A stretch of 64,000 bases of DNA from the NCBI RefSeq assembly GCF_010378095.1, contig NZ_WNJL01000040.1, positions 53,013 to 117,012 of the forward strand, written 5' to 3'. Below are positions 1,439-18,152 of this stretch, one piece after another. This DNA comes from Acidithiobacillus ferrianus. Lineage in GTDB: Bacteria; Pseudomonadota; Gammaproteobacteria; Acidithiobacillales; Acidithiobacillaceae. Each line of letters starts with the position of its first letter. The first letter of the stretch is position 1. The notes under the pieces were generated by a model that did not search any database, was not told the origin of the DNA, and was given only the letters and a program-made list of their open reading frames with translations. The translations under genes and the position numbers were made by a program.

Positions 1439-2449
1439 ATGCCGAGTTTAGATAGCCCATCCCTGGTCACGGGTGCGACTGGTTTCATCGGCGGCCATTT
1501 GGCCGAACGGCTCCTTGCCATGGGGCAACCGCTGCGTCTCTTGGTGCGCGACCCATCCCGCTTACCTCCTCTGCTCAGGAACGGTGCTGACATCATCCAG
1601 GGGAATTTGGAGGACGCCGATTCATTACTCCCGGCGGTACAGGGCGCGCGCTGGATATTTCACTGCGCCGCCAATGTCAGGACCTGGGATCTTCCCCAAA
1701 ATTATCATGCCGTGAACGTGGCCGGCTTGGGCCATTTGCTGAGGGCCATAGAACAAGCCGGGCAACCCCCTCAGCGTTTTGTGCATCTCTCTTCAGTAGA
1801 TGTTTACGGTTTCCCCAAGACGCCCTGCGACGAGGATTGCCCGGCCAACGGTGGCGACTTTGCGTATGGTCAAAGCAAGCTCCAAGGCGAGTCACTGCTT
1901 CGTGAGCAGGCTGCCCGCATGCACCTGTCTTACAGCGTCTTGCGGCCCACCAACGTGATGGGACCACGCAGCTCTTTCATCCAGCGTATCGGCGATGAGT
2001 TGCGCCGAGGGCTGATGTTGACCATCCATGGGGGTGTGGAGGACTGTGGATTCCTGGCCGTGGACAATTTGGTGGACTGCATGCTGTGGGCCGCCCAGGC
2101 CGAGGCGGCGTCAGATCAGTGCTACAATGTGGCCGATCCGGAACCCATTTCCTGGCGTCGTTTTTTGGATGATTTCCGGACGGGTATCCAAGGCAAGGGC
2201 GTGGTTTTGGACTTGCCCTACGGGTTGGCGAATGCCGTGGCCGCGGTCATCGAGACGCCCTACCGCTGGTTGGGGAGCGCGCGAGAGCCCTTGTTGCATC
2301 GTCTATTGGTGCGGATTTTTGGTCGCACCTGCGGACACCGGGCTGACCGTATCGCGACCGCCGGCGGTCCGGTGGGACGTGTGTCCTACGCCCAGGCAAT
2401 GCGGGAATCCATCGCCTGGTATCGGGGGGAATCCGGAGCGGGCTGGTGA
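1439..2449 (+). CDS. Extended SDR, NAD-dependent epimerase/3-beta-HSD type; possible CerR-like keto-lipid reductase
   Basis: A 336-residue extended short-chain dehydrogenase. It has the nucleotide-binding motif LVTGATGFIGGHL at the N-terminus, the HCAANV strand, and a catalytic YGQSK (YxxxK) around residue 143, with SSVDVYG before it. The frame can open at 1394, two bases after the tRNA CCA, but the ATG at 1439 gives an N-terminus that starts directly at the Rossmann fold, so I use it. The stop overlaps the next gene by four bases (GTGA). The fold covers sugar epimerases and 3-beta-hydroxysteroid dehydrogenases as well as the bacterial ceramide reductase CerR. Because an alpha-oxoamine synthase and a GNAT-like acyltransferase are neighbours, reduction of a 3-keto long-chain lipid is my preferred reading, but nucleotide-sugar modification is a real alternative. 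Confidence 0.75.
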   Translation: MPSLDSPSLVTGATGFIGGHLAERLLAMGQPLRLLVRDPSRLPPLLRNGADIIQGNLEDADSLLPAVQGARWIFHCAANVRTWDLPQNYHAVNVAGLGHLLRAIEQAGQPPQRFVHLSSVDVYGFPKTPCDEDCPANGGDFAYGQSKLQGESLLREQAARMHLSYSVLRPTNVMGPRSSFIQRIGDELRRGLMLTIHGGVEDCGFLAVDNLVDCMLWAAQAEAASDQCYNVADPEPISWRRFLDDFRTGIQGKGVVLDLPYGLANAVAAVIETPYRWLGSAREPLLHRLLVRIFGRTCGHRADRIATAGGPVGRVSYAQAMRESIAWYRGESGAGW

Positions 2450-3735
2450 AGCCGCCCCCCCTTTCACAAGCCATCGAACCCACCGTCAACGCTGACGGCC
2501 GCCATCGCCACTTTGTCTTTTTGCAGGGCATGCCGTCCCCATTCTTTGCGCGTGTCGCCGACATCCTCCGCCAGCAGGGATGCCGCGTCACCCGGATCAA
2601 CCTTTGTCCTGGGGATCGCCTATTCTGGCGGAGTGCTGGGGCCATCGACTATCGCGGCAGCTACTCCCGTTGGCCGGCTTTCATCGACGCGTTTTTCGCG
2701 CGGGAAGTGGTCACCCATATAGTGCTGCTGGGAGAGCAACGGCGCTATCACCGGGAGGCCGTTCACCAGGCCAAATCACGCGGCATAGCGGTGATCGTCA
2801 CGGATTTTGGCTATTTACGTCCGGACTGGATCACGCTGGAGCGGGACGGAATGAGCGGCAATTCGCGCTTTCCCCGAGAACCCGGAGCGATCCGGCAACT
2901 GGCCGCGCGCGTGGCCGAACCCGACTGCTCCGTGCGCTTTGCCGATAGCGCCTTTCGGATGGCGCGCGCCGATCTGCTCTACAACATGGTCAACCTGCTG
3001 TTTGGGTGGCTATACCCCGGCTATCGGCGCAGCGACCTGCGACCGCCGACCCCCATCTATACCTTGGCCAGCGCTTGGCGCCTTTATGGCAATGCCCGCC
3101 TCCGCTCCCGTATGGAGCACATCGTTCGAGGGATTCTGGCTTCGGGCGTAAGATATTTCGTCTTTCCGCTGCAACTCGACTTCGACTTCCAGATCGTCGC
3201 CTATTCTCCTTATGCGACGATGGGAGATGCCATTGGCGAGGTGCTCGACTCCTTCGCGCGGGATGCGCCACCCGAGACGCGGCTCGTGCTCAAGGAACAT
3301 CCCTGGGACCCGGCCCTGAACAATTGGGAGCGTTTCACCCAAGGGCGCGCCAAAGACCTGGGCATCAAGGATCGCGTGTGTTTTTTGCGCGGGGGCGACC
3401 TGGACGCCCTGATTCAGGCCAGCGCTGGCGTCGTCACCGTCAATAGCACCACGGGGATACGCGCCCTGCAACTGGGGCGTCCGGTGAAGACCTTGGGGCA
3501 AGCCATCTACGATGTGCCTGGCTTATGTTCTACGCAAACCCTGCGCGGCTTCTGGAATCAGCCCAACCCACCCGATCCGTTGCTCACCCGGGATTTTATC
3601 AAGCTGTTGGCCGCCATGGTGCATATCCGCGGCGTATTTTTCCAAGAGCCGGGCTTGAGCCATGCGGTGCGCGAGGCGGCACGGCGTTTATTGGATGACG
3701 GCAATGCGCCTACGCCGCCACGTTCGTGGTCTTGA
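2446..3735 (+). CDS. KpsS/WcbO-like capsule polysaccharide glycosyltransferase (beta-Kdo transferase family)
   Basis: A 429-residue protein without signal peptide. The segment FVFLQGMPSPFF with INLCPGD and YRG..W after it resembles the N-terminus of KpsS/LipB-type proteins. A KEHPWDP motif (about residue 282) and VNSTTGIRALQLGRPV (about residue 329) match the C-terminal donor site of this family. KpsS and KpsC build the Kdo linker on the lipid terminus of exported capsules in group 2 systems, so this enzyme may prime glycan growth on a lipid anchor. It starts with GTG, overlapping the SDR stop by four bases, with GGAG upstream. Its last 26 bases overlap the convergent acyltransferase gene. 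No Kdo biosynthesis gene is nearby, so the sugar added is unknown. Confidence 0.75.
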   Translation: MKPPPLSQAIEPTVNADGRHRHFVFLQGMPSPFFARVADILRQQGCRVTRINLCPGDRLFWRSAGAIDYRGSYSRWPAFIDAFFAREVVTHIVLLGEQRRYHREAVHQAKSRGIAVIVTDFGYLRPDWITLERDGMSGNSRFPREPGAIRQLAARVAEPDCSVRFADSAFRMARADLLYNMVNLLFGWLYPGYRRSDLRPPTPIYTLASAWRLYGNARLRSRMEHIVRGILASGVRYFVFPLQLDFDFQIVAYSPYATMGDAIGEVLDSFARDAPPETRLVLKEHPWDPALNNWERFTQGRAKDLGIKDRVCFLRGGDLDALIQASAGVVTVNSTTGIRALQLGRPVKTLGQAIYDVPGLCSTQTLRGFWNQPNPPDPLLTRDFIKLLAAMVHIRGVFFQEPGLSHAVREAARRLLDDGNAPTPPRSWS

Positions 3736-4849
3736 ACACGGGTCGTTGATTGGGCTGCGGCACGTGGTTGAGCAAGGCATACCCCAAGCCGACGAAGGGA
3801 TTGATCCATCCACTGGCAGCACGCAGGGCCATGAAAATGGGGGTGACCTCCGCACCGAGATCTTGCTTGATGGGATAGGTGGTCAGACCCATTTCCAGGC
3901 GCTTTACCCCCAAGGCGATGGCCGTAGCCACAACCTGGTGCGCGATATAGATATAGAGACCGTCGTTTTCCGCCTCCGCGCGACCCACATACAGCCAGCG
4001 CAACATGTCACCATCGACGAGTAGCAGGGCATGGCCCACCAAGGCTTCGCCCCGATAAAAGAGTATTACCCTGGCCCGCCCCTCCAGAGTGCGGGCGAGT
4101 TCACCATAAAAAGCCGGCGTCAGGGTCTCCCGCTGAAACTCCTTCGCATGCTGGTGCACCACCATCCACTGATGATGCAGAACTTCGGCCATGCTCCCGA
4201 AGTCCTCGACGAGGCGATGGTGCACGCCTGCCTGCTGGTTGCGTTTAAGGTATTTTTTGAGTTTGCTTCGATAATAGCTGCGCATCGCGCCCCAGTACCG
4301 TTCTGGCGTGGGCCAACGGATCTCCATATAGGTGTTGGGTAAACTGGATGTCCAATGATACCCCCGTCGGCGAAAAATGGAGCGCAGGTTTTGGGCATTG
4401 GGCTCGAAATCCCGTACGACGATGAGAAAATGGCCTTCGGCGCGTGCGGTGCGGCGGAGCACTTCATCCATCGCTTCGATCACCTGCCTATCGCTGAACG
4501 CTTCGCTGCGCGCAAAAGGAGGACTGTTGATGGTCACGGGCGAGCCCCACTCCAACATCCGCAGCTTGAGAAAGTTCGGAAACCATCGCCGGAGACGATT
4601 CAAAAAGACGCGCAATCCGGGCGGGGCAAAAATGGCGATGTCGGTGGTAACGGAGTAAAAGCTGGTGATGGCCTGCGGCTCTCCATGTTCATCCAGCAAC
4701 ATGGCATGGCGGTACGCAAAATCATTGAGCCCCGACTGTTCGACCACTTGCCAAAACTCCCAAGACAAAGTCTCCGAATGGGGTCTGGCGAGCCGATTCC
4801 AGCTTTCCCGGGGAACTTTCGTGATGGAATCATAGAGTTCGATTCGCAT
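3710..4849 (-). CDS. GNAT-fold acyltransferase (FemAB-like); candidate N-acyltransferase of a sphingoid base
   Basis: A 379-residue protein. The C-terminal half has a GNAT/FemAB pattern: RSKLKKYLKRN, then VILFYRGEALVGHALLLVDGDMLRWLYVG, then EMGLTTYPIKQDLG (landmark blocks). The frame extends to a GTG at 4894 that would overlap the preceding gene, but the ATG at 4849 has a GGAG six bases upstream and is preferred. It is the last gene of the minus-strand operon, 35 bases after the oxoamine synthase. Proteins of this type occur as GNAT N-acyltransferases in capsule clusters, and the bacterial ceramide synthase bCerS is also a GNAT protein. I infer N-acylation of the amino lipid made by the upstream enzymes. 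Peptidyl or sugar amine acylation is not excluded. Confidence 0.7.
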   Translation of the reverse strand: MRIELYDSITKVPRESWNRLARPHSETLSWEFWQVVEQSGLNDFAYRHAMLLDEHGEPQAITSFYSVTTDIAIFAPPGLRVFLNRLRRWFPNFLKLRMLEWGSPVTINSPPFARSEAFSDRQVIEAMDEVLRRTARAEGHFLIVVRDFEPNAQNLRSIFRRRGYHWTSSLPNTYMEIRWPTPERYWGAMRSYYRSKLKKYLKRNQQAGVHHRLVEDFGSMAEVLHHQWMVVHQHAKEFQRETLTPAFYGELARTLEGRARVILFYRGEALVGHALLLVDGDMLRWLYVGRAEAENDGLYIYIAHQVVATAIALGVKRLEMGLTTYPIKQDLGAEVTPIFMALRAASGWINPFVGLGYALLNHVPQPNQRPVFKTTNVAA

Positions 4850-4884
4850 AACTTCTCCGCAGATTTTTCTTGTGTGACGTGGGT

Positions 4885-6210
4885 CTAGAGGCACGCGCGG
4901 AGTGCATCCAAGGTGATGTCGATATCGGCCTGGCTATGGGTGGAGCTCAGGAAAAAGCGCAAGCGGGCTTGTTTTTCGGGCACCGCCGGGTAAATGATGG
5001 GCTGCACATGGATGCCCCGCTGCAAAAGTGCGCTGGATAAGCGCACCGCATGCAGGGAACTTCCAAAAATGGCGGGCGTAATGGCGATTCCTGCGCCACT
5101 GCCGGTATCCAATCCAAGGGCCCGGATTCGATCGAAGAAGTACGCTCCCCGTGCCTGCAAGGCGGCTACCCGTTCCGGTTCCGCTTTCAAGAGCTTCAAT
5201 GCCGCCTGGGCTGCGGCCGCCACTGGCGGTGACATCCCCACGCTGTAGAGAAATCCCGGAGCAAGGTAGCGGAGGTTTTCGATCAGGGCTTTTTCTCCGG
5301 CCACGTAGCCACCACAAGCGGCGAGCGACTTGCTCAACGTGCCCATCCAGATGTCTACTTTCCGAGGGTCGATGCCAAAATGTTCGGCGATTCCCAGGCC
5401 GCGGTGACCAACAACGCCCAGCGCATGCGCCTCATCGATCAGGAGCCACGCGCCGTATCGTTTTTTCAGGTCGACCAAGACGGGTAAGTCGGGGTAATCG
5501 CCGTCCATGCTATAGATCCCTTCCACCGCAATGAGCAAGCGCTCGGCGCGATGACGGTGGTTCTGCAGCAATCGTTCGAGGTCATCCATGTCGTTGTGAC
5601 GAAAGGAGAAGCGCTGCGCGCGCGAGATCTGTATGCCCATCAGGATACTGTTATGGGCGTACTCGTCATGCAGCACCATATCCTTCGGACCCAAAAGATG
5701 TCCGATGAGACTGATGTTGGTCCCATGACCGCTGACCATCACCAGGGCGTCATCGACGCCGTAGAGTTCCGCAATGCTCTGCTCGAGGTTGCGGTGCAGG
5801 GGCCGTTCTCCCGCGACGATGCGGCTGGCGGAAACCGATGTGCCATAACGGTCAATGGCGGCCTTGGCGGCGGCATTGACCTGCGGGTGTCCGGAAAGCC
5901 CAAGATAGTTGTAGCTGCCATAATTGATCACCGGATGTCCGGCAATCTCGCTGTGGGCGGACGCCGTACCCGCATGGACATGAAAGAACGGGTTCTCCAC
6001 ACCAAAACGCTGGGCGCCCTCCTGAATCATGCGTACCTGGCGGAAACCAGGTTGTCGATCAAAACGGGTGAAGGCCTCGGGAACGGCGGTATCTTCCTGA
6101 CGCGGCCGCGCCATCGGCGTCGCACCCATCTGCTTTAGACGCTTCTCCAACCCCTTTTGAATGAGCCGTTCCTTGACTTGCGCGGCAAGGCTGCGATGAG
6201 GTTTATTCAT
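4885..6210 (-). CDS. PLP-dependent alpha-oxoamine synthase (serine palmitoyltransferase/AONS/KBL family)
   Basis: A 441-residue fold-type I PLP enzyme. The family condenses an amino acid with an acyl thioester and loses CO2, giving an alpha-amino ketone. Visible motifs are NYGSYNYLGLSGHP (near 96-109), the D259-E-A-H262 segment that contacts PLP, and the Schiff-base lysine K294 in GTLSKSLAACGG. The first 60 residues extend beyond the usual core. The gene starts one base after the PKS stop region (ATG at 6210, PKS stop at 6212), so coupling to the PKS is strong. The PKS has no thioesterase, so I infer that this enzyme off-loads the ACP-bound chain onto an amino acid. WcbT in Burkholderia capsule I clusters is a similar partner of WcbR. 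The amino acid used (Ser, Ala or Gly) cannot be read from sequence. Confidence 0.9.
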   Translation of the reverse strand: MNKPHRSLAAQVKERLIQKGLEKRLKQMGATPMARPRQEDTAVPEAFTRFDRQPGFRQVRMIQEGAQRFGVENPFFHVHAGTASAHSEIAGHPVINYGSYNYLGLSGHPQVNAAAKAAIDRYGTSVSASRIVAGERPLHRNLEQSIAELYGVDDALVMVSGHGTNISLIGHLLGPKDMVLHDEYAHNSILMGIQISRAQRFSFRHNDMDDLERLLQNHRHRAERLLIAVEGIYSMDGDYPDLPVLVDLKKRYGAWLLIDEAHALGVVGHRGLGIAEHFGIDPRKVDIWMGTLSKSLAACGGYVAGEKALIENLRYLAPGFLYSVGMSPPVAAAAQAALKLLKAEPERVAALQARGAYFFDRIRALGLDTGSGAGIAITPAIFGSSLHAVRLSSALLQRGIHVQPIIYPAVPEKQARLRFFLSSTHSQADIDITLDALRACL

Positions 6211-6211
6211 T

Positions 6212-9200
6212 TCAGTGGCCTCCCGTGCCGGTGATCAGCGCAGCATCCACCTCTTGCTGGGCGACGCCATGCGCCGCGGCCAGCCGCTGGAATTCGGCAT
6301 CGGGGGCTTGCTCCGCCAGCGCGGCATTCACCGTATCCCCTTTCCGCAAGGACTGCAGCAGCCGCTGGGCCAGTTTGCCGGGCGTCGGTCCTTCGCTGAG
6401 CAGGAAGGCGGGTAACTTGATCCCCAAGCGTTCCTCCAGCGCCAGTGCCAGTTCGACTCCCATCAGCGAATCGAGCCCGAGTTGACCGAGATTTTGGTCC
6501 GGCGGAATTTTTTCGACGGCCAGCCGCAAGATCTGTCCAACTTCGCGGCGCACCAGATCCGTCAGCAACGCCTGCGCCTCGCCCAGCGGCAGCGTTCGCA
6601 GTGTGGCGCAGAGATCCGCGTCGGTCGCGCCGGTGTCGTCCTCTACCCCCCGCGACAGTTCCGTAAAGCGCGGCGCCAGGGCGGTCGGCAAAAAGCGGCG
6701 TACCGCGCCCCAGTCCAGATCGGCCACCACCAGGGCGCTGGCATTCGTCAGCAGCATCGCCTCCAGGATATCGAGGGCCGTCGCCGCCCGTAGCGCCGCG
6801 CCGCCCAGCCGCTGCTGCAACACATCGCGCATCTGCGGATTACGGGCCAGGTAACCGGCATCCCCGATCGCTCCCCACAACACCGCGGTGGCCGGCAAGC
6901 CCTGGACCCGGCGTAGCGTGGCCAGTGCCTCCATCCAGGTATTCGCCGCCACGTAATGGGCCTGCCCGGGGTTGCCGAGCAGGGTGCTCACCGACGAGTA
7001 CAGCACGAAGAAATCCAGCGGAGCACCCTGACTACTCTGATGAAGATGCCATGCACCGGCGATTTTTGGGTACAGCACGGCGTCTATCCGCGTCGCCGTC
7101 AGGTTTTGGGCGAGCGCGTCGTCAATGACGGCTGCCGCATGGATGATGCCCCGTAGGGGTCCGATCTCCGTCGCGATCCGCGTAAACAGCGCCTGTACCT
7201 GCACCCCGTCGCCGACATCGCAGGGCAGACAGTGCAGATCGACGCCCGCCGCCGTCATCGCCGTCAACGCTTCTTGGCCGGCCGCATCGGGACGTGCGGA
7301 GCGGCTGACCAGCACCAACCGTCTCGCACCCTTGGTCACCAGCCACTGCGCCGTCTCCAGCCCGAAACCGGAGAGTCCGCCGGTGACCAGATAAACACCG
7401 TCGGCAGACAGACGAAGACTCGCCCCCCCATGGCGCGAGGGCGGCGCGGCAGGGGTGAAGGGCGGTGCCATATCGATCACGATCTTGCCAATCTGCCGCG
7501 CCTGCTGCATATGCCGGAACGCTTCCACCACCCGTGCCGCCGGGAAACGGACCATCGGCAGCGTAAAGAAACCGTCTTGCGCAAAGTGTTCCATGATCGC
7601 CGTGAGCAGCCGCTGCGTCAGCGCCGCTCGCCCCAGCAGCAATTGATCGGCATCGATCCCGAAATAACTCAGATTATTGCGGAAGGGACGCAGACCCACG
7701 GCGGTATTTTCGTAAAAATCCCGTTTCCCCAGTTCGAGGAAACGTCCAAAAGGCCGCAACACCTGTAGATTTCGGCGTATCGCCTCGCCGGAGAGGCTGT
7801 TGAGGAGCACATCGATACCGGTGCCGCCCGTATCGCGCAGAATCGCCTCGGCAAAGTCGAGGGAGCGGGAATCATAGACCCGATCCACCCCCAACAGGCG
7901 CAGAAAATCTCGCTTTTCCGGAGAACCCGCCGTCGCAAAGATTTCGGCGCCGAGCTGCTGCGCGATCTGGATCGCCGCGATACCCACGCCGCCGGCGCCG
8001 CCATGGATCAATACGCGTTCACCGGCTTCCAGCCGCGCCAGTTCGCGTAACGCGTACCAGGCGGTGAAGAACACCGTAGGAATCGTCGCCACCGCCGCCA
8101 TGTCCATGCCCGGTGGCAATGCGGCGATGGCCATTTCCGATGTCTGCACATGGGTACTGAAACTGGCGGGGGCAAAGCCGAGTATCGCATCCCCCGGTGC
8201 CCAGCGGGTCACCCGCCGCCCCACTGCGACGACCCGCCCGGCGAACTCGAGCCCCAGACCGGGGCCGGAGAAACCGTTTTCGAGGGCTTCATCGGAAAGC
8301 ATGCCCAAGGCGTACATCACATCGCGGAAATTGAGCCCCGCCGCGGCCACGGCCACCTCTACGGCATCGTCAGCAAGGACCGGGCGTGGAGGATCAGCCC
8401 ATTGCAAATTGCGTAGCTGGCCAGGCAGCGAAAAACCCAATTGCCGGCGGGAAGATGCCTGCATCGGGTCTGCCACCGCTGGCGAGGTCAGTTCTTGTAC
8501 CCGTGGGGCATACCGCCGGCCCTCGGTATCAAAGACCAGTTCAGTCTCCGCGCCGGGATCGAGCAGCGCACCGACGACGGCCGCCACCGTCGCCGCCGTG
8601 GGTGTCGCCATCCCCCAGTCGATCAGGCGCAGTGCCCATTCCGGCCACTCGTTCTGCAGGCTGCGGGCAAAGCCGCAGAGCCCCGCCGCATCCAGCGCCG
8701 ACAAATCGGCCGATGGTTCATCGACCAGCGGACAAGTCGCGCGGACACCACCCGCCGTCAGCACAAAGACGGGCGCCACATCCGCCTGACTCACGCCCCA
8801 CAAGCCCAAAGTGCGGAGCATCTGACAGGATCGCGACAGCATCGCCGGCGAGAAAGGAGTCGTCAGCGCAGACCGCTCCAGATAGATCACCCCCGCCCAA
8901 TGCTTGTCCCCCGCTTTTTCGGTCAGAACAGCCGTCAGTGCGGCTTCAGAGCCGGCGGCAATGAAATGGCACTCAGCGCCAGCCGCCGTCAGCGCCGTCC
9001 GCAGCATCGCCACCCCCGGCACGTGCTCCGTTCCCGGCGTGCCCACCAGCAACCAGCGTCCGGCCGCGGAACGGCTTTCCGGCACCGCCTCCACCGATGC
9101 CGTTTTACGCAGCAACAAGGCGTATGCACCCGGACCGTCCCCTTCCGCACCCAAGACCATGCATCCGGCGAAACCACGGTCCTCCAGCCACTGTCGGCAC

Positions 9201-12200
9201 TCCGTCATACCCATCAGAGGCGGACCGGACGCGTCCACCGTCCGCCACCAGGGTTCCGGATGCACCCCCTGTACCAGCAAGACACCCTCCGCGGCCACAC
9301 AGTCCACGGCGCACTCCAGCATTTGCAACTGCACCTCCTTATCGGCCACATCCAGACGCAACCATGCCAGATGCACCACAGGCCGGTTTTCATCCCGCAG
9401 ATGGAGGGTCGTCCACGGCGCCGTCGACGATGCCTCGGCATCATTCAACCCTGCCTGATAGAGCGCGCAGCGGACATCTCCCCCCACGTCCGCCGCGAGC
9501 GCCGGCAACCACTCCACCGCCGAATGGCTGATCTCCAGTAGCCCCAGGCGCTGGCCAGCGGATAACGCCACCCGCAACGCGGCGACCATCGCACGCAGTC
9601 CGGCCAGCATCGACGGGGTCAGGGTCTGGAGAATGGCCGGATAAGCGGCCGTCGCGATCCGGGGCCATGTGCCCGACTCTCCGCCACCGGACTGATGCAA
9701 GCCCCAGCGCCCGACCTGCAGGGTGATCGGGAAAAACTCCGGGTAATCCTGCAGCAGGGTCTGCCAGATATCCGCCGCCGCAACCTCCTCGTCCCCCTCT
9801 GTCGAGGATTTCGCCCCATAGGCTTGCAGCAGCCCCTCCACCAGCGGCGAAAACTCCTCGACATAACGCCTGGCCGCGGCGCTATCCGCCAGCGCATCGG
9901 TCAATAGCGTGTGTAGAGCCGCCAGATCGAGCGGAATTCGCGCGTCGGCACCCCCCGCCAACGGTACCGGCGTCAGCCTGCTGTGCAAATAGCGCAGACG
10001 CTCGGCGTCGCTGCGCCGCAGGCGCACCCGGCGCAGGCGCACCCCCTCACATCGTACCACCACCCTGCCTCGCCCATCGGTCAGGGCCGCATCCGCCAAC
10101 AGGGACTGTGGCGAGCGGCGCAGCAGCCGTACGGACGCCCAGAGTATTTCCTCCGCCGCCGCCCGCAGGCTCAGCCGCTCGATACGCACCGGCACAAAAC
10201 CCCAGCCAGCCTCTGCGCCCTCGGCAGCCAGCAGATTCACAAAAAGCTGCAATGCCCCATCGAGCAATGCGGGATGCAACAAATAATCCGCGGCATCCGC
10301 CGGCGCCGGCAGCGCCAATCGCGCCAGCACGCCGTCCTCTTGCAGCCATCCCGCCTGTACCGACTGAAATCCCGGACCATAGTGGAGACCGGCGATATCC
10401 GCCAGGCGATAGTGCTGCGCCGCGTCAAAATCCGGGAGCCGGGAGGGTGGCACCGGGAGTTCCTGAAGCGTATCCATTTCTGCGCCGGCACTGCCCTGGC
10501 GAATCCGCCCTTTGCCGTGGAGCGTCCAGCCCTCCTGCAACAACGGACGCGCTTGAATCGTCGCCCCCCCCTCCTCGTCCACGCTGACGCGCAGCACCTT
10601 GCTGTCATCGCCATCGATGAGCAGCGGCGCCACGATTTCCAGATCCTCGATGACGAGATGCGCGGAACTCGCAAAGCGCTCGCGCGCCGCCGCCAGCAGC
10701 AACTCCACGTAACCCGCTCCGGGAAAGACTACGCCGTCTCCCACCCGATGATCCGCCAGAAAAGGCCATCGCGCCGTATCGATCTGCTGCTCCCATTCTC
10801 CGGCATGGCCAGCAACCGGATGTCCCAGCAACGGATGCACCGAATAAGCAGTGAGCGTCCGCGCCGACTCGCTGGTGACCGTATGCCAGTGATGTTCCCG
10901 CTCCCACGGATAACGGGGCAAATCGACCGCCGGGGCCGCTACCGGGTAATACCGCTGCCAATCCGTCGGCACCCCGGCCACCCAGAGCGCAGCCGCCGCC
11001 TGCGCCAACACCTGGGCATTCTCCTCGCCACGGCGCAGCGTGGTGATGATTCGCCCATCCCGCTCTGCCACATTCAGCGCGTCCTGCACATAAGCGCGCA
11101 GCACCGGATGCCCGCCCAGTTCGATAAAGATATTCCATGACTGCAGCAACCCGTCGATCGCCTGCTGAAAACGCACTGGCTCGCGGATATTCCGCCACCA
11201 GTACGTCGCGTCCAGCGTCTCTTCGGCAAGCACCGCGCCGGTCACCGTCGACAGCAGCGGGATACGCGCCGCCATCGGGTGCAGTTCCGCCAGACTGTCC
11301 AGCAGCGCCGCGCGGAAACCATCCATCTGCGGACCATGAAAGGGATAATCCACATCCAGGCGCTTATGGCCCACGCCCAGATTGCGCAATCGCCGCTCCA
11401 GCGCCGTCAATGCATCCTGGGCGCCCACCACCGTCGACCCGCGCGAGCTGTTCCATGCGGCAATGGAGACCCTGTCCGCCAGAGCCCAGTCCCGCAACCA
11501 CCCCATGACCGTATCCGCGTCAGCCGCCACTGCCGTCATCTGCCCCAGTCCCCGCGACTGGCTCTGCAAACGACTACGCTCATAGATCACCCGGACGGCA
11601 TCCGCGAGATTCAAACCGCCACAGGCCCATGCCGCCGCCACTTCACCAACGCTGTGCCCGGCCACCGCCACCGGTTCGACTCCCAGCGCGCGCAAGCACT
11701 CCGTGGCCCCCACCTGGAGCGCAAAAAGCGCCGGCTGGGCGAATTCCGTCAGCGCATAGCGTCCCTCACCGAGCAAGCCCGCCAACTCATCCCGCAAAGC
11801 ATAACCCGCCAGTGGCAGGAAGATCGCGTCTATCGCCGCCAGCGTTTGTGTAAACACCGGCTCATTCAGCAGGGCCCGGCCCATGCCCGCCCACTGGCAG
11901 CCATTTCCGGAATAGAGGAATACCGGGCCGCGCGGCGCTTCCAGTCCGCGTCCCAGCGCGGCCGGAGACGCATCCTCACCGGCGGCAAAAGCGCGCACAT
12001 CCGCTGCCAGATCGGAGCCGTCACCCCCCCAGAACAGGGCGCGCTGACCCAAGCGCTCGCTCCGGAAGTTCGCCTGATAGCGGCAGGCGTAATCCTGCTC
12101 CGCCACCCCCGTCAGCACCCCGGCGAAATCCGCCGCCACCTGTCGCAAAGCGGTCGGCGTCGCCGCCGACAGCAACAGCGGCCAACGCCGCGCACGGCGC

Positions 12201-13516
12201 ATCTTTCCGGGTAAACGCACCCGCCGCCGGGGCTCCGCCGCCCGCTCCAGTACCACATGGGCATTGGCGCCGCCGAAACCGAAGGAATTCACCCCGATCG
12301 TCAGCGGCCCTGCGGCGCGCAAGGGGCGCGCCGCAGTCACCACCTCCAGGCCGAAATCCGCCAGCGGCAGACGCGGATTCAGTCGCGTCACACCGATCGT
12401 CGCCGGTACGGTCCGCTGCCGCAGGCAGTGAATGGCCTTCAACAACCCAGGCACCCCCGATGCCGTCTCCATATGCCCCAGATTGCTCTTTACCGAGCCC
12501 AGCGGCAGCGGGTTGCCGGCGCGCCGCCGGGCGCCCAGTGCGCGACCAATGGCCTCCACTTCCAGGGGATCGCCAACCGCCGTGCCGGTACCATGCGCCT
12601 CGATATAATCCACCGCATCGGGATCGATGCCCGCCGCCGCATAAGCCGCGGTGAGCAAGGCCGCCTGCGCCTCCACCCGTGGTATGGTCAACCCCGCCTT
12701 GTGTCCATCCGTATTGATGGCGGTATGGGCCACCACCGCCAGGATGCGATCCCCGTCGCGCAGCGCCGCCGCATACTCCTTGAGCACGAAGACTCCACCA
12801 CCCTCCGCGCGCACATAGCCATCCGCCGCCGCGTCAAAGGGGCGTGAGCGGCCATTGGCAGAAAGCATGGACGCTTTGGAAAAAATCAGAAAACCAAAAG
12901 GATGCAGATGCAGATTGATGGCCCCGGTCAGCGCCAGATCGCTCTCACCGTGCAACAGCGACTGGCAAGCCTGATGAAAAGCGACCAGTGCCGAAGAGCA
13001 GGCCGTATCCACCACCATGCTCGGCCCCCGCAGATCATAAAAATAGGACAGGCGATTCGCCGCAATGCTCGCCGTCGAACCCGTCGCCGAGTTCGCGCCG
13101 ATGACCGCCAAGTCATCGGCCATCCGGTAGGCGTAATCGGTACTGGCGAGACCGATGAAGACGCCGCAACGGCTCCCGCGCAAGCGGGAAACCGGGAAAC
13201 CGGCATGGGCGAAAGCCTCCCAGCTCATCTCCAGCAGCAGGCGCTGCTGTGGGTCCATGGCCGCCGCTTCGCGCGGGGAAATGTGAAAAAACCCCGCATC
13301 GAAGCCGGCCACATCCCCCAGTGAACCCGCCGCAAAGGTCACCGAGCTCCCCGGATGGGCGCGTGACGGATGCTCGAGACCGTACTGCGCCCAGCGGTCC
13401 TCCGCCACCCGCGTCACCAGATTTCGGCCCGCCAGCAAGTCTTCCCAGAAGGCGGCATCCGATGTTTGCGGCAAGCGCGACGCATAGCCAACGATCGCGA
13501 TTTTTTTATTTTTCAT
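6212..13516 (-). CDS. Highly reducing type I polyketide synthase (KS-AT-DH-degenerate MT-ER-KR-ACP), WcbR-like
   Basis: A single-module 2434-residue megasynthase. KS about 1-425 with Cys173 (DTACSS), His308 (EAHGTGT) and His348 (KSNLGH). AT about 530-830 with Ser622 in GHSVGE and a PFH selectivity motif near 725-727, closer to malonyl than methylmalonyl types. DH about 890-1165 with His923 (ADHRVGDGVVFPG) and Asp1086 (HPALLDG). Residues 1180-1690 hold a region where a methyltransferase and structural KR would sit, but no intact SAM motif. ER about 1695-2015 with the NADPH loop HGGAGGVG. KR about 2035-2270 with TGGLSGFG, Ser2174/2175, Tyr2188 and an IDD signature of B-type stereochemistry. ACP about 2315-2390 with Ser2350 in LGLDSL. 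There is no thioesterase. A full reducing set suggests a saturated fatty-acid-like chain built iteratively. The start overlaps the upstream glycosyltransferase stop by ATGA. Confidence 0.95.
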   Translation of the reverse strand: MKNKKIAIVGYASRLPQTSDAAFWEDLLAGRNLVTRVAEDRWAQYGLEHPSRAHPGSSVTFAAGSLGDVAGFDAGFFHISPREAAAMDPQQRLLLEMSWEAFAHAGFPVSRLRGSRCGVFIGLASTDYAYRMADDLAVIGANSATGSTASIAANRLSYFYDLRGPSMVVDTACSSALVAFHQACQSLLHGESDLALTGAINLHLHPFGFLIFSKASMLSANGRSRPFDAAADGYVRAEGGGVFVLKEYAAALRDGDRILAVVAHTAINTDGHKAGLTIPRVEAQAALLTAAYAAAGIDPDAVDYIEAHGTGTAVGDPLEVEAIGRALGARRRAGNPLPLGSVKSNLGHMETASGVPGLLKAIHCLRQRTVPATIGVTRLNPRLPLADFGLEVVTAARPLRAAGPLTIGVNSFGFGGANAHVVLERAAEPRRRVRLPGKMRRARRWPLLLSAATPTALRQVAADFAGVLTGVAEQDYACRYQANFRSERLGQRALFWGGDGSDLAADVRAFAAGEDASPAALGRGLEAPRGPVFLYSGNGCQWAGMGRALLNEPVFTQTLAAIDAIFLPLAGYALRDELAGLLGEGRYALTEFAQPALFALQVGATECLRALGVEPVAVAGHSVGEVAAAWACGGLNLADAVRVIYERSRLQSQSRGLGQMTAVAADADTVMGWLRDWALADRVSIAAWNSSRGSTVVGAQDALTALERRLRNLGVGHKRLDVDYPFHGPQMDGFRAALLDSLAELHPMAARIPLLSTVTGAVLAEETLDATYWWRNIREPVRFQQAIDGLLQSWNIFIELGGHPVLRAYVQDALNVAERDGRIITTLRRGEENAQVLAQAAAALWVAGVPTDWQRYYPVAAPAVDLPRYPWEREHHWHTVTSESARTLTAYSVHPLLGHPVAGHAGEWEQQIDTARWPFLADHRVGDGVVFPGAGYVELLLAAARERFASSAHLVIEDLEIVAPLLIDGDDSKVLRVSVDEEGGATIQARPLLQEGWTLHGKGRIRQGSAGAEMDTLQELPVPPSRLPDFDAAQHYRLADIAGLHYGPGFQSVQAGWLQEDGVLARLALPAPADAADYLLHPALLDGALQLFVNLLAAEGAEAGWGFVPVRIERLSLRAAAEEILWASVRLLRRSPQSLLADAALTDGRGRVVVRCEGVRLRRVRLRRSDAERLRYLHSRLTPVPLAGGADARIPLDLAALHTLLTDALADSAAARRYVEEFSPLVEGLLQAYGAKSSTEGDEEVAAADIWQTLLQDYPEFFPITLQVGRWGLHQSGGGESGTWPRIATAAYPAILQTLTPSMLAGLRAMVAALRVALSAGQRLGLLEISHSAVEWLPALAADVGGDVRCALYQAGLNDAEASSTAPWTTLHLRDENRPVVHLAWLRLDVADKEVQLQMLECAVDCVAAEGVLLVQGVHPEPWWRTVDASGPPLMGMTECRQWLEDRGFAGCMVLGAEGDGPGAYALLLRKTASVEAVPESRSAAGRWLLVGTPGTEHVPGVAMLRTALTAAGAECHFIAAGSEAALTAVLTEKAGDKHWAGVIYLERSALTTPFSPAMLSRSCQMLRTLGLWGVSQADVAPVFVLTAGGVRATCPLVDEPSADLSALDAAGLCGFARSLQNEWPEWALRLIDWGMATPTAATVAAVVGALLDPGAETELVFDTEGRRYAPRVQELTSPAVADPMQASSRRQLGFSLPGQLRNLQWADPPRPVLADDAVEVAVAAAGLNFRDVMYALGMLSDEALENGFSGPGLGLEFAGRVVAVGRRVTRWAPGDAILGFAPASFSTHVQTSEMAIAALPPGMDMAAVATIPTVFFTAWYALRELARLEAGERVLIHGGAGGVGIAAIQIAQQLGAEIFATAGSPEKRDFLRLLGVDRVYDSRSLDFAEAILRDTGGTGIDVLLNSLSGEAIRRNLQVLRPFGRFLELGKRDFYENTAVGLRPFRNNLSYFGIDADQLLLGRAALTQRLLTAIMEHFAQDGFFTLPMVRFPAARVVEAFRHMQQARQIGKIVIDMAPPFTPAAPPSRHGGASLRLSADGVYLVTGGLSGFGLETAQWLVTKGARRLVLVSRSARPDAAGQEALTAMTAAGVDLHCLPCDVGDGVQVQALFTRIATEIGPLRGIIHAAAVIDDALAQNLTATRIDAVLYPKIAGAWHLHQSSQGAPLDFFVLYSSVSTLLGNPGQAHYVAANTWMEALATLRRVQGLPATAVLWGAIGDAGYLARNPQMRDVLQQRLGGAALRAATALDILEAMLLTNASALVVADLDWGAVRRFLPTALAPRFTELSRGVEDDTGATDADLCATLRTLPLGEAQALLTDLVRREVGQILRLAVEKIPPDQNLGQLGLDSLMGVELALALEERLGIKLPAFLLSEGPTPGKLAQRLLQSLRKGDTVNAALAEQAPDAEFQRLAAAHGVAQQEVDAALITGTGGH

Positions 13517-14688
13517 AAACGGCTCACGAAGTTTTCGAATTCAGAAAAGTGATCAGACCAGCTGGGTACCGAAAATCCTCGCAAACGATGCAATTGCGCC
13601 TCTCGTCGCGCATTCGCGGGTTGCGCATAATCCTGAATCGCCCCCAGCCACGCGTCCTCATCGCCCAGATCGAGATAATCCGGCACCAAGCCCGCCATCT
13701 CACGAAACACCGGCAACGGGCTCGCCAGCACCGGCACGCCCAAATCCATCGCCTCCAGCAGCGGTAATCCGTAACCCTCCGCATGAGAAGGAAAGAGCAT
13801 GGCGCGGGCATGGCGCAAATAATGCCCGAGCCGGGCATCGTCACAATCCGTCATCAGATGCACACGCTGTTTCAGTCGCTCGTCGGTCATCAACCGATGG
13901 ACCACCCCACCGCACATCCAGCCGATTTGCCCGATGACCAAGAGGTGCGGAATTTCCGCAGCGCTCCATTCGTCCAGCATGCGTTGCCACAGATGCAGCA
14001 CGAACGCATGGTTTTTACGGGGCTCCAGCGTCCCCACCATCACGAAATACGGCTCCGCCACCGCGCCCGGCTCCGCCTCGCAGGCCGTCCAGTACTTTTT
14101 GGCGCCCAGCGGGATGACCGCCACCGGCGGCACCGCTGCCCCCACCTGCCGGGCATGGTCGTCGAGCATCTCCGCCGTATGCCGGGAATTGCTCACGATC
14201 CCCTCTGCCGCCCCCAGAATCAAGTCCATTCGCCGCACATGACGTTCCGCCGCGCCCGCCTGACAAAATTGCGCGTGGGTAATGGGAATCAGGTCATGGA
14301 CCATCACCAGCAAGCGTATGTTCTTACGGCGTAGCCAGCCAAGATAACTCCGCCGGTCCAGCCCGCTGTGCCCCATATTGAGCACCCAGCTCCCGGCAGG
14401 CACCGCGCGCAGCGGCCATTTGAGCAGGCCCCCCAGGATACCCTCCAAACTGGCAACACGCTGGCCATCTTCCCAGCCCGCCAGCCCGTCGAAAAGCGCC
14501 ACGGAAGCCGGTGGAGACAAGCCCACCGCGACACCACCCCAGATCACCATGGCCTGCGCCCGATGATGAAAATGCCGCACGTAGGCGAGACACACGCGGT
14601 CCACTCCGGTCGGCATTCGCCTTCGCGTCAGGCGGTGCAGCAACCGAGTCACATCCAGAAAAACCGGTGCATCACCAAATCCACTCAT
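13513..14688 (-). CDS. GT4-type glycosyltransferase of the capsule cluster
   Basis: A 391-residue GT-B glycosyltransferase. The C-terminal donor domain carries VMVGTLEPRKNH and the EX7E-type motif in PSHAEGYGLPLLEAM (about residue 296), as in retaining GT4 enzymes. The N-terminal FLDVTRLLHR...GVDRVCLAYV pattern resembles WcbB-like and mannosyltransferase-like capsule enzymes and recurs in the second half of the large transferase at 20825-23407. It is cytoplasmic by sequence, with no transmembrane segment seen. It lies between the export lipoprotein gene (nine-base gap) and the PKS (four-base overlap). Donor and acceptor sugars cannot be assigned. Confidence 0.88.
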   Translation of the reverse strand: MSGFGDAPVFLDVTRLLHRLTRRRMPTGVDRVCLAYVRHFHHRAQAMVIWGGVAVGLSPPASVALFDGLAGWEDGQRVASLEGILGGLLKWPLRAVPAGSWVLNMGHSGLDRRSYLGWLRRKNIRLLVMVHDLIPITHAQFCQAGAAERHVRRMDLILGAAEGIVSNSRHTAEMLDDHARQVGAAVPPVAVIPLGAKKYWTACEAEPGAVAEPYFVMVGTLEPRKNHAFVLHLWQRMLDEWSAAEIPHLLVIGQIGWMCGGVVHRLMTDERLKQRVHLMTDCDDARLGHYLRHARAMLFPSHAEGYGLPLLEAMDLGVPVLASPLPVFREMAGLVPDYLDLGDEDAWLGAIQDYAQPANARREAQLHRLRGFSVPSWSDHFSEFENFVSRL

Positions 14689-14697: not shown

Positions 14698-15882
14698 CTA
14701 AGGGACCACACCCGCCGTCGTCAGACCCTGAATCGGATAGACCATCTCCACGATCAGCCCCAGGAACTTCTGCAGATCGGTGATCGGCGCCGAAGCCACA
14801 TAAATCAGATCATGATTTTGAATCGGAAACGTCTGTGCCGCGAAGAGGGTGGCCGGATTGCTGAAATCAAAACGGAATACCACCGGCACTTCGCCATTGG
14901 CAAGGGTCTGCACGGGTTTCGGCCAGTGTGGCAGCAAAGACGGCTTCTCCAGGCGGAACACGAAGACCGCCTTGGCATCGGCCTGATTGCCATTGAGCCC
15001 CCCCGCCTGCGCCAAGGCCTGGGCCAGGCTGATGCCCGAGGCCTGAAAGTCCACTTCCTTGGTCTCTTTGGTGGCGCCCATCACGGTCACCTGCAAGGGT
15101 TTATACAGTGCCGTCAGCACATCGCCACCGCGCAAAGAAACATCCTCACGGGGATTGCGGATGACTTCCTCCAGGGGCAATTGCAGCACTTTGCCGCCGC
15201 GGGACAACTGTATGGTCACCTTGTTGACCGGCTTGACCACGCCACCCGCCGCCGCTATGGCCTGCAGTACGCTGACCCCGCCCGGAATCATGGGCACCAT
15301 GGTGCTCTTTTTCACGTTGCCCACCACCGTAATGCTCTGGGCATGATTCTTCACCAACCGCACCACCACCTGCGGATCGTGGGCCATGTGAATCAGCCGT
15401 TCACGGATCTCGGCACCAATCTCATTCAGCGTTTTGCCGGTACAAGGAATCTTGCCCGCGAAGGGCATCGTGATATCCCCGTCGCTCCCCACCATCTGCG
15501 CAGGGATGGACGTCATCATGGACCCCGAGAGCTTGCTCATGGAAGAAACTCCCGTGGCAAACAGCATGGCGGGCGGCGCTTCCCAAATGTACACCTGCAG
15601 CGTATCGCCGGGCCCGACGGTGTAACGGAGGGGATTGGGGTTGGTGAAATCCTTCAATGCACCCAGATTCGACTGATCCATCTCGTCTTTCATGTAACGA
15701 GACATGGCGTAATTCACATCCACCAGTTGAATCCCCGCCAGGATCTTGTTGTGTGCCACATCATCCACATTGCCCGCGCGAGGGCCGGAATACGGCATGT
15801 AAGCAGCGCAGCCGGAAAGACCGGCGGCCAGGAGGCCCAGCGCAAACACTTTGGTCCCCATGCTCTTTAACACTTTTTTCAA
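14698..15882 (-). CDS. Outer-membrane polysaccharide export lipoprotein (Wza/KpsD/WcbC family)
   Basis: A 394-residue export protein. The N-terminus MKKVLKSMGTKVFALGLL is followed by the lipobox LSGC, so it is probably acylated and periplasmic/outer-membrane located. YTVGPGDTLQVYIWE opens the poly-export domain, and SLBB-like repeats follow, including GDITMPFAGKIP and VTVMGATK. I choose TTG at 15882 as the start because GGAGGA lies just upstream and the resulting protein has a classic short signal peptide. A longer frame to 15930 has no ribosome-binding site. It is the first gene of the minus-strand operon and works with the KpsE-like and KpsM-like proteins encoded divergently. Confidence 0.9.
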   Translation of the reverse strand: MKKVLKSMGTKVFALGLLAAGLSGCAAYMPYSGPRAGNVDDVAHNKILAGIQLVDVNYAMSRYMKDEMDQSNLGALKDFTNPNPLRYTVGPGDTLQVYIWEAPPAMLFATGVSSMSKLSGSMMTSIPAQMVGSDGDITMPFAGKIPCTGKTLNEIGAEIRERLIHMAHDPQVVVRLVKNHAQSITVVGNVKKSTMVPMIPGGVSVLQAIAAAGGVVKPVNKVTIQLSRGGKVLQLPLEEVIRNPREDVSLRGGDVLTALYKPLQVTVMGATKETKEVDFQASGISLAQALAQAGGLNGNQADAKAVFVFRLEKPSLLPHWPKPVQTLANGEVPVVFRFDFSNPATLFAAQTFPIQNHDLIYVASAPITDLQKFLGLIVEMVYPIQGLTTAGVVP

Positions 15883-17288: not shown

Positions 17289-18075
17289 TCACCGTCTGAC
17301 CTTCCGGGATCAGTTGCGGCTGCAGGGGCGGGTGATTTGGGCGCTCACCCTGCGAGAGACCGTTACGCGTTTCGGGCGCGAGGGACTCGGCATGCTATGG
17401 ATGATTGGCGAACCGGCGCTGTTTGTGGTCGGGGTGATGATCATCTTCTCATTTATTGATTCCGGTTATCCTTACGGTATTAGTCCTGCAGAATATCTGG
17501 CAGTGAGCTACCCCACCCTGCTGTTCTGGAGAAATGGTACCGGCAGGGTGACCGGAGCCATAGAGCAAAACCGATCCTTGCTACATCATCAGCCCATCCG
17601 GCCCATGGACATCCTCTATGCGCGAATACTGCTGGAGTTCGCCAGCGGGATGGCGGTGTTCCTGTTTCTCTTTCCGATCTTCATCGTCGTGGGCATATGT
17701 CATTTACCGAGCAATCTCCTGATCATGGCGGTCGGTTATCTACTGATCATCTGGTTTTCCTTTGGTTTCGTGCTCATCATGGCGGGTCTTGCCGAACTCA
17801 GTGAAACTATCGAAAAAACCTCTCATATCATCTTGTATTTGATGCTACCGTTTTGCGGCGTTTTTTTTCCCACATTTCTGGTGCCGGAACCCTATCGGAG
17901 TTATTTGCTCTACTTTCCATTGATCGATGCGGTGGATTATTTTCATCATGGTTACTTTGGCCCGACAGTGCCCAGTTATTATCATCTGGGATATACCGTG
18001 CTTGCGTTGTTGGGAATGACCTTGTTTGGCTTCGCTATTTCAGGGGTGGCCATCCGTCGGGTAAAGGTGACGTGA
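17278..18075 (+). CDS. KpsM/Wzm-like ABC-2 type capsule exporter permease
   Basis: A 265-residue membrane protein of the ABC-2 permease family with about six hydrophobic segments, beginning around ALFVVGVMIIFSF. The N-terminal amphipathic stretch VIWALTLRETVTRFGREGLGMLW is typical of KpsM and Wzm. It should form the transmembrane channel half of the exporter for lipid-linked polysaccharide. The start ATG at 17278 overlaps the KpsE-like gene by 11 bases. The partner ATPase (KpsT/Wzt) normally sits beside it but is absent here, so it must be encoded elsewhere or has been lost. Confidence 0.9.
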   Translation: MNADHRLTFRDQLRLQGRVIWALTLRETVTRFGREGLGMLWMIGEPALFVVGVMIIFSFIDSGYPYGISPAEYLAVSYPTLLFWRNGTGRVTGAIEQNRSLLHHQPIRPMDILYARILLEFASGMAVFLFLFPIFIVVGICHLPSNLLIMAVGYLLIIWFSFGFVLIMAGLAELSETIEKTSHIILYLMLPFCGVFFPTFLVPEPYRSYLLYFPLIDAVDYFHHGYFGPTVPSYYHLGYTVLALLGMTLFGFAISGVAIRRVKVT

Positions 18076-18091: not shown

Positions 18092-18152
18092 GTTTCATGG
18101 TTCCTCGAAAAATATGAATTGGGCAATAGCCACCTACGAGGAACCATGAAAC
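18092..18152 (+). repeat. Perfect 16-bp inverted repeat enclosing the ribosome-binding site and start of the sulfotransferase-like gene
   Basis: GTTTCATGGTTCCTCG at 18092-18107 is the exact reverse complement of the segment at 18137-18152, with a 29-base loop. The right arm contains the GAGGAA ribosome-binding site and the ATG at 18146. In mRNA the stem would hide both, so it may gate translation. No U tract follows, so it is unlikely to be an intrinsic terminator. Confidence 0.9.

Follow-up and report, generated by a model that had tools for sequence, protein, structure and literature searches.

What a polyketide synthase (PKS) might contribute to a bacterial capsule is the question raised by a locus of Acidithiobacillus ferrianus, within a stretch of 64,000 nucleotides (nt) that we refer to as the window. 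Acidithiobacillus is an acid-loving mining bacterium. A preliminary description of the locus had read its PKS, alpha-oxoamine synthase (AOAS), GNAT-type transferase, and short-chain dehydrogenase/reductase (SDR) as a PKS-fed branch of sphingolipid biosynthesis, with the GNAT as a relative of the bacterial ceramide synthase bCerS. Our analysis confirmed the four genes and supported the PKS-AOAS route to a sphingoid base; it did not support the assignment of the GNAT to bCerS. The description had also overlooked a KpsS-like gene, the capsule context, and the prior publication of a PKS-fed sphingolipid pathway, SgaAB of Pseudomonas fluorescens, in 2025 (PMC12134224). The reading we favor, held with about as much doubt as confidence, is that the locus is dedicated to a lipid of the sphingoid type, finished by the SDR and the GNAT, which serves as the acceptor for a capsule exported by an ABC transporter. 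What is new, in our best reading of the sequences, would be the finishing module of GNAT, SDR, and KpsS, as a variant of the rkp/wcb/sga capsule-lipid pathway. Gene content, phylogeny, co-occurrence, and mutual exclusion are its directly established basis.

Gene content and the PKS-AOAS core

All four genes lie where they had been placed (Table 1), with the SDR gene convergent to the PKS, AOAS, and GNAT genes. The minus-strand genes, from the Wza-type exporter to the GNAT, are tightly packed and operon-like, with spacings of 9 nt (Wza-type/GT4), −4 nt (GT4/PKS), 1 nt (PKS to AOAS), and 35 nt (AOAS to GNAT). The SDR and KpsS-like genes form a convergent plus-strand pair, overlapping by 4 nt, and KpsE- and KpsM-like genes follow further on. 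The open reading frames of the SDR and the Wza-type gene open at 1394 and 15930, respectively. The KpsE-like protein has no Pfam match, and its name is inferred from size, place, and neighbors.

Table 1. Features of the locus (positions within the window; L098 is a locus from a GNAT-carrying genome and the source of the Kps queries)
Feature	Position	Strand	Evidence
Extended SDR (NAD-dependent epimerase/dehydratase fold)	1439..2449	+	PF01370, 115 bits
KpsS-like capsule glycosyltransferase	2446..3735	+	PF05159, 231 bits; NCBIfam KpsS, 193 bits (cut-off, 600)
Tandem-GNAT, FemAB-like acyl- or aminoacyltransferase	3710..4849	−	
PLP alpha-oxoamine synthase (AOAS), PKS-linked SgaB/RkpG kind	4885..6210	−	
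Mono-modular type I PKS, KS-AT-DH-ER-KR-ACP, 2434 aa	6212..13516	−	Pfam and motifs
GT4 glycosyltransferase	13513..14688	−	PF00534/PF13692
Wza/KpsD-type outer-membrane polysaccharide export protein	14698..15861	−	PF02563 and SLBB domains
KpsE-like inner-membrane export protein	16170..17288	+	44% over 359 aa to the KpsE-like protein next to PKS-AOAS in L098
KpsM-like ABC permease	17257..18075	+	PF01061; 33% to KpsM-like protein of L098

The PKS contains the motifs DTACSS, HGTGT, KSNLGH, GHSVGE, HRVGDGVVFP, HPALLD, GGVG, and GLDSL as well as the Ser/Tyr stretch of the KR domain, and a Pfam search of it gave no thioesterase match, in agreement with the preliminary description. This is the domain set of the WcbR/RkpA/SgaA type, and the enzyme is probably used iteratively. 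Its best tblastn pieces match the PKSs of a Sinorhizobium meliloti locus (L142; 35%) and of a Pseudomonas plasmid locus (L143; 45%). Of the 29 AOAS loci that were fetched, 28 have a PKS gene directly upstream of the AOAS gene, and the remaining one ends at a contig edge.

The AOAS has Lys294 (in GTLSKS), DEAHALG, and DEYAHNS. Against NCBIfam it scored 350 bits with bioF and 317 bits with Spt, all below cut-off; with the Spt models it reached 317, 287, and 216 bits against cut-offs of 640, 500, and 670. It shares a 44-row clade of the tree (support, 100/100) with PKS-linked enzymes from S. meliloti, Pseudomonas, and Caballeronia; the 10 alpha-proteobacterial Spts form a clade that excludes it, and we rejected it as a canonical Spt. 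The AOAS of L143, in the same clade, is 55.6% identical to it. The AOASs of the genomes carrying the GNAT are not monophyletic (6 changes in the tree). SgaB of P. fluorescens is reported to be a serine-specific serine palmitoyltransferase working with a PKS, and the cluster yields C24-C28 sphinganines and phosphoglycerol sphingolipids (PMC12134224). Together with the clade of PKS-linked AOASs, this published activity supports the proposal that PKS and AOAS make a sphingoid base; by analogy, the amino acid substrate is most likely serine. P. fluorescens MYb115 resembles the window in having a PKS followed by an AOAS and in the product class proposed here, and the AOAS-to-SDR distance in L143 (five locus tags) equals that from SgaB to SgaC. 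It differs in its KDSR-type SDR (SgaC) and phosphoglycerol sphingolipids, and the account of MYb115, as excerpted, describes no GNAT/extended-SDR module; the word "capsule" is absent from its main text (PMC12134224).

The SDR and the GNAT as candidate finishing enzymes

Bacterial ceramide synthesis of the Caulobacter type involves spt, acpR, cerR, aasR, and cerS. The proposed chemistry is alike (an AOAS, an extended SDR that reduces the keto group, and a tandem GNAT for N-acylation), but the window differs in that its AOAS lies outside the Spt clade, its acyl chain would come from a PKS, its locus is linked to capsule genes, and its GNAT lacks profile homology to the bCerS candidates. In hhalign, the GNAT profile matched that of six bCerS candidates with a probability of 0.4% over 26 columns; these candidates are six members of cluster c3, which occurs in 9 of 10 alpha-proteobacterial Spt loci and was assigned by gene order (near spt and lptF/G-like genes), not by name. 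Both proteins model as tandem GNAT folds. The nearest structures to the window GNAT are FemX and MprF, and those to the bCerS candidate, from a weaker model (pLDDT, 78.6; 6 sequences), are CoA-dependent tandem GNATs. The profile result does not support the GNAT as a bCerS; the two share the tandem GNAT fold, and their best structural neighbors differ.

That the nearest neighbors, FemX and MprF, are aminoacyl-tRNA dependent counts against our favored reading. It fits an alternative that we regard as unlikely but worth keeping in mind, according to which the same capsule lipid is made and the GNAT adds an amino acid, giving an aminoacyl-sphinganine rather than a ceramide.

The SDR carries the motifs GATGFIG, SS, and YGQSK, with residues S118, Y143, and K147, that is, the nucleotide motif and Ser-Tyr-Lys set that characterize CerR as an extended SDR. 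Its profile matches that of seven CerR candidates over the full length (99.9%), and the two families form separate clades in the tree (supports, 97/96 and 100/99). Nucleotide-sugar enzymes are numerous in the SDR superfamily, HpnA (a family named as a sugar epimerase) gives the best NCBIfam score at 104 of 368 bits, far below cut-off, and the Vi capsule ends in an acylated hexosamine (PMC12220298). These points, and the company of a KpsS-like gene in most GNAT loci (see below), would suit a scheme in which the product of the SDR is a nucleotide sugar and the substrate of the GNAT, for N-acylation, an amino sugar at the reducing end of the capsule, the PKS-AOAS lipid being a separate matter. 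We think this improbable. The SDR family forms its own clade and is not nested among ten reference extended SDRs (five from E. coli and five from its own genome), so that the grouping with nucleotide-sugar epimerases that would have spoken against a lipid role was not seen in this set. The distribution of the genes, described next, also argues against it.

At least 120 close relatives each of the GNAT and the SDR were found among the matches listed. The two genes are immediate neighbors in 38 of the 41 GNAT loci, and GNAT, SDR, and a KpsS-like gene occur together in 36; given the many relatives and this adjacency, the arrangement goes beyond chance. Homologues of the GT4 and Wza/KpsD-type genes are clustered with the GNAT less often (19 of 41 loci each). 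The KpsS of the window and those of 25 other sampled GNAT loci form one clade (100/99). An AOAS orthologue, often sited elsewhere in the genome, occurs in 31 of 38 GNAT genomes (29 at ≥51% identity and 2 contig-edge pieces) and in 11 of 368 other genomes of the class sample, from which the source genome was left out (Fisher P = 1.6e-30, a value that overstates independence, as the genomes are related). No orthologue was found in seven GNAT genomes of unstated completeness (G005, G009, G012, G014, G017, G034, and G038), and these count against the favored reading.

The usual finishing enzymes show the opposite distribution. An LtaS-like protein is present in 0 of 39 GNAT genomes versus 7 of the 11 other AOAS genomes, and a KDSR-like SDR scoring ≥140 bits, a cut set after the scores were seen, in 2 of 39 versus 8 of 11. 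Against mutual exclusion, a looser limit of 1e-30 gives a KDSR-like SDR in 12 of the 39 GNAT genomes, and G011 and G019 carry one at 170 to 190 bits. Neither a KDSR-like SDR nor an LtaS-like PF00884 protein was found in the source genome at the limits used, nor in 23 stretches from GNAT genomes. One of 20 PKS/AOAS loci without the GNAT gene that were compared, L164, has a 33% extended-SDR match. Because of this co-occurrence and the absence of the usual enzymes, we assign the finishing of the PKS-AOAS lipid, provisionally, to the SDR and the GNAT, as the preliminary description had done.

Capsule context and the proposed pathway

The KpsS-like gene is the sole PF05159 match in the genome at an E threshold of 0.001, and this search found no KpsC; a poly-Kdo linker is therefore not supported. 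With a KpsT-like ATPase (49%) on another contig (G000:C43:798-1430), the genome holds an ABC-dependent, group 2-like capsule set of KpsS-, KpsE-, KpsM-, KpsT-, and Wza-like genes. This resembles E. coli group 2 (KpsSC and KpsMTED), from which it differs in that no KpsC was found and in the proposed acceptor, a sphingoid lipid instead of the lyso-phosphatidylglycerol that ordinary KpsS uses. Around the AOAS genes of 12 GNAT genomes (those of the 29 with longer stretches, including L098), KpsE-, KpsM-, and KpsT-like genes were found in 11, 10, and 9, respectively. The Pseudomonas plasmid locus likewise has KpsS-like, capsular, KpsF, and kdsB genes together with its PKS-AOAS set.

The rkp-1 region of rhizobia serves capsule production (PMC4881576, PMC7902896); S. 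fredii rkp-1 mutants are described as deficient in the capsular polysaccharide KPS, and the rkp-1 products are said to make a specific lipid carrier (PMC4881576). L142, which we assigned to S. meliloti rkp-1 (rkpA, -G, -H, -I, and -J with rkpU) by gene order in a pSymB record without rkp names, unites Wza-type, PKS, AOAS, SDR, and KpsS-like genes as the window does. Where the window has an extended SDR and a GNAT, L142 carries an SDR of the classical type and an LtaS-like protein of family PF00884 (16310-17848). The Burkholderia wcb capsule cluster contains a PKS of the WcbR/RkpA kind (PMC3908369), a likeness that rests on its description; the sequences compared were those of Caballeronia and Paraburkholderia plasmid relatives (L144 and L161), which carry KDSR-like, LtaS-like, and LpxC-like genes.

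It is very unlikely, in our view, that PKS and AOAS yield a free sphingolipid, secreted or in the membrane, as a secondary metabolite of the kind proposed for MYb115, with capsule genes as incidental neighbors. MYb115 does make free sphinganines tied to nematode host protection (PMC12134224). Among the 20 non-GNAT loci, moreover, 9 gave no capsule-gene match within the stretches retrieved and 3 no PKS match, so not every member of the AOAS clade is linked to a capsule. The KpsE-like neighbors of the AOAS, the Pseudomonas plasmid locus, and the rkp-1 phenotype speak against a free product.

According to the pathway that we favor, the PKS would build a long acyl chain on its own ACP, and the AOAS would release it by condensing it decarboxylatively with an amino acid, giving 3-keto-sphinganine if it acts like its serine-specific relative. 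Keto reduction would then fall to the extended SDR and acylation of the amine to the FemAB-like GNAT, in either order. The KpsS-like enzyme would add the first sugar to this lipid, GT4 enzymes would extend it, and the product would be exported by KpsMTE/Wza, the lipid ending as the capsule anchor. In related rkp/sga-type loci, where the same core is paired with a KDSR-like SDR of the classical type and with an LtaS-like protein, the product would be a phosphoglycerol-sphinganine with one chain, similar to lyso-phosphatidylglycerol, the acceptor that ordinary KpsS uses.

Tentatively, the rkp, wcb, and sga-type capsules, together with the one proposed for the window, may form a whole proteobacterial class that is anchored by PKS-made sphingolipids instead of phosphatidylglycerol lipids. 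This class would have two mutually exclusive finishing chemistries, each with a matched KpsS: KDSR and LtaS-like proteins leading to the lyso-phosphatidylglycerol mimic, or the extended SDR and FemAB-like GNAT leading to an N-substituted, ceramide-like lipid. The second would be a convergent route to ceramides, with a GNAT unrelated to bCerS.

Implications

The lipid carrier of the rhizobial rkp-1 capsule has been postulated, and we found no identification of it in the literature as excerpted; the MYb115 sphingolipids have so far been explained as host-active metabolites (PMC12134224). Joined, the two give one testable idea, that PKS-made sphingoid lipids are capsule anchors, and the two interchangeable finishing modules named here would yield products distinguishable by mass spectrometry. 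A total of 6,101 PKS-AOAS pairs, mostly from Burkholderia, have been reported in bacteria that are not known to make sphingolipids (PMC12134224), and a role in capsule anchoring, if true, would offer a reason for them. It would also mean an unusual capsule anchor in acidophiles such as Acidithiobacillus, with relevance to biofilm formation and mineral attachment.

Gene layout and capsule setting of the oxoamine synthase

The genes for a Wza-type export protein, a GT4 protein, the polyketide synthase (PKS), the alpha-oxoamine synthase (AOAS), and the GNAT protein follow one another on the minus strand with gaps of 9, −4, 1, and 35 nt. On the plus strand, the extended SDR and KpsS-like genes share 4 nt, and the end of the KpsS-like gene converges on the GNAT gene with a 26-nt overlap. 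From position 16170 on, KpsE-like and KpsM-like genes are directed away on the plus strand, and a KpsT-like ATPase (49%) sits on a separate 3.6-kb contig. These Kps- and Wza-type neighbors place the PKS, AOAS, GNAT, and SDR genes within a capsule locus; the preliminary description had picked out genes that are real and conserved but left this capsule locus unlisted. The window belongs to an Acidithiobacillus genome: the GNAT is 94% identical to that of A. ferriphilus, the nearest named loci being those of A. ferriphilus (L005) and A. ferrivorans (L006). Neither promoters (1 found versus 4.0 in shuffled sequences) nor terminators (12 versus 13.2) were in excess.

Several further genes were observed nearby. 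A 901-amino-acid protein, in which DUF4214 was the sole domain matched, has an N-terminal sulfotransferase-like GSTWL loop, judged by eye, and the capsule may therefore carry sulfate. An IS110-type transposase borders the capsule genes. About 4 kb ahead of window base 1, HpnA scores above its curated cutoff, which puts a hopanoid-associated gene near the capsule-lipid locus.

Positions of the genes and loci discussed (G000 is the genome of the window)
Feature	Location	Strand
Extended SDR	window 1439-2449	+
KpsS-like	window 2446-3735	+
GNAT	window 3710-4849	-
AOAS	window 4885-6210	-
PKS	window 6212-13516	-
GT4	window 13513-14688	-
Wza-type	window 14698-15861	-
KpsE-like	window 16170-17288	+
KpsM-like	window 17257-18075	+
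901-amino-acid protein	window 18119-20824	
IS110-type transposase	window 23897-24865	
HpnA	G000:C35:47911-48894	
BioF/Kbl-like gene	G000:C1:114800	
PF04339 protein	L125:4106-5260	
Pseudomonas plasmid locus	L143, NZ_CP016850.1:10959-36269	
Deacetylase, Caballeronia plasmid	L144:11030-11956	
Deacetylase, Paraburkholderia plasmid	L161:11037-11951	
AOAS/PKS-like frame, Streptomyces plasmid	L163:5311-10134	

The PKS has the domain order KS-AT-DH-ER-KR-ACP with intact motifs; no thioesterase was matched in it by Pfam, nor was any Pfam family in the ∼550 residues between DH and ER. The AOAS falls below every NCBIfam cutoff. In a tree of 62 sequences, it forms a clade (100/100) with AOASs from 28 other GNAT genomes (28 of the 29 fetched; the cut L074 was omitted), 12 of the 13 found in the class sample (an internal stop led to the omission of L085), and the S. 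meliloti, Pseudomonas, and Caballeronia loci. Outside lie 10 alphaproteobacterial Spts, the 4 ALAS included in the tree (of 5), and the Kbl and BioF sequences; some outgroup branches are long, including those of BioF, and L075, labeled BioF, grouped with Kbl. Identity as BioF was rejected: a BioF/Kbl-like gene (36%) is present elsewhere in the genome, and the window enzyme falls outside the BioF, Kbl, and ALAS sequences. The PKS lies directly upstream of the AOAS in 28 of 29 fetched loci. SgaB of P. fluorescens has been described as an SPT specific for serine, which together with a PKS yields C24 to C28 sphinganines and phosphoglycerol sphingolipids (PMC12134224); the idea central to the preliminary description, a PKS-fed sphingolipid, was thus already in print in 2025. 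On a Streptomyces plasmid, an AOAS of the window kind (53%) and a PKS-like part occupy a single reading frame.

Identity and co-occurrence of the GNAT and SDR

The proposal that the GNAT is the ceramide synthase bCerS was not borne out, being rejected at the sequence level by profile comparison with an alignment of six bCerS candidates, drawn from a cluster present in 9 of 10 Spt loci; the CerR alignment, for the SDR, comprised seven candidates, likewise from a cluster present in 9 of 10 Spt loci. No ceramide synthase appeared among the fold neighbors listed for the GNAT, which carries little weight since we know of no solved bCerS structure; a search of solved structures gave a single match, to a chain of DPY30 (E = 0.0004), which we attribute to chance. 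Reading the SDR as a nucleotide-sugar epimerase was not favored by the SDR tree. A PF04339 protein in genome G551, ∼3.5 kb from an Spt above the family cutoff, was first taken as a possible bCerS, until gene order and recurrence favored the cluster finally used (c3). Neither a bCerS-like nor a CerR-like gene was found in the fetched region of G551, and this protein may be a further FemAB-like substitute for bCerS.

Scanning GTDB genomes with the GNAT family yielded 41 loci in 39 genomes (L011 shares a genome with L007, and L045 with L037). The SDR lies beside the GNAT in 38 of these loci, KpsS in 36, and all three occur together in 36, with a PKS or AOAS within ∼10 kb in 11. An AOAS orthologue (51 to 93% identity) was present in 29 of the 38 GNAT genomes searched (all except that of L015), and contig-edge pieces occur in two more (G033, 52% over 152 residues, and the genome of L005, 39 residues); in seven, matches were ≤39% or absent. 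The AOAS lies on the GNAT's contig, 16 to 30 kb away, in at least the three genomes for which the distance was worked out (G010, G011, and G015). Among 369 genomes sampled from one class (GNAT genomes also include Alphaproteobacteria), 12 have the AOAS (E ≤ 1e−80), and the GNAT family proper occurs only in the window's own genome, besides two remote 27% matches.

Two proposed finishing modules

Twenty AOAS loci of the non-GNAT kind (including the same-genome pairs L110/L167 and L165/L166 and the same-family pair L108/L168) contained no GNAT. Twelve encode a classical KDSR-like SDR, 10 an LtaS-like PF00884 protein, and 13 either one, counts in which L104 and L143, the sources of the KDSR and LtaS queries, match themselves; an extended-SDR match occurs in one (L164, 33%). 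Conversely, no KDSR-like or LtaS-like gene was found in 23 stretches from GNAT genomes, 12 of which hold the AOAS without the GNAT and some of which are short (L033, L045, and L099, <7 kb). Genome-wide, the LtaS-like protein occurs in 0 of 39 GNAT genomes versus 7 of 11 others, and the KDSR-like SDR in 2 of 39 versus 8 of 11 at ≥140 bits (12 of 39 versus 8 of 11 at the search's own limit). The two finishing modules appear to be mutually exclusive. No capsule-gene match was found in the stretch fetched for 9 of the 20 non-GNAT loci, which counts against a universal capsule link.

On the Caballeronia and Paraburkholderia plasmids, the gene between PKS and AOAS is annotated as a UDP-3-O-acyl-GlcNAc deacetylase (PF03331 was checked for the Paraburkholderia protein), and the presence of a deacetylase in such a locus hints at an N-acyl step there.

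Relation to known capsule-lipid systems

The S. meliloti locus (L142) has the order PKS, AOAS, SDR, PF00884 protein, and KpsS-like protein. The order in the Pseudomonas locus, on a plasmid typed as mobilizable that bears the PKS-AOAS-capsule set, is PKS, AOAS, dioxygenase, capsular protein, small GNAT, LTA synthase, SDR, KpsS-like protein, and another PF05159 protein; its small GNAT belongs to a different family from that of the window. The AOAS and SDR of this plasmid locus lie five locus tags apart, just as PMC12134224 gives for SgaB and SgaC of P. fluorescens MYb115, so that MYb115 may carry the same genes at that place. Citing Kiss 1997 and Muller 2009, a review (PMC4881576) describes rkp-1 as required for poly-Kdo secretion and assigns to its products the synthesis and modification of a specific lipid carrier used in capsule export; WcbR/RkpA PKSs were placed in capsule clusters by Della Sala 2013 (PMC3908369, in the part available). 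In the available text of a 2025 review of capsule attachment (PMC12220298), the terms sphingo-, polyketide, and rkp do not appear, and among titles and abstract openings we found no literature joining PKS sphingolipids with the capsule.

In a KpsS tree comprising the window, 25 of the 36 KpsS-bearing GNAT loci, and 7 non-GNAT loci, the KpsS proteins from the GNAT loci and the window group in a single clade (100/99), which nests beside KpsS of S. meliloti and Shinella and away from the other five. The AOASs of GNAT genomes are dispersed within their clade (6 changes). With KpsS in one clade and the AOASs dispersed, the finishing enzymes and KpsS seem to be inherited as a unit, the PKS-AOAS pair apparently moving more freely. 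In the simplest reading, the SDR and GNAT would shape the acceptor seen by KpsS.

The finding is real, conserved, and partly understood: the locus is best read as a variant of the capsule-lipid system known from rkp, wcb, and sga that carries a finishing module of its own; the chemical product of the locus is inferred throughout. What is new relative to the published PKS-fed sphingolipids is this separate finishing module in a capsule-lipid system of the rkp/wcb/sga type.
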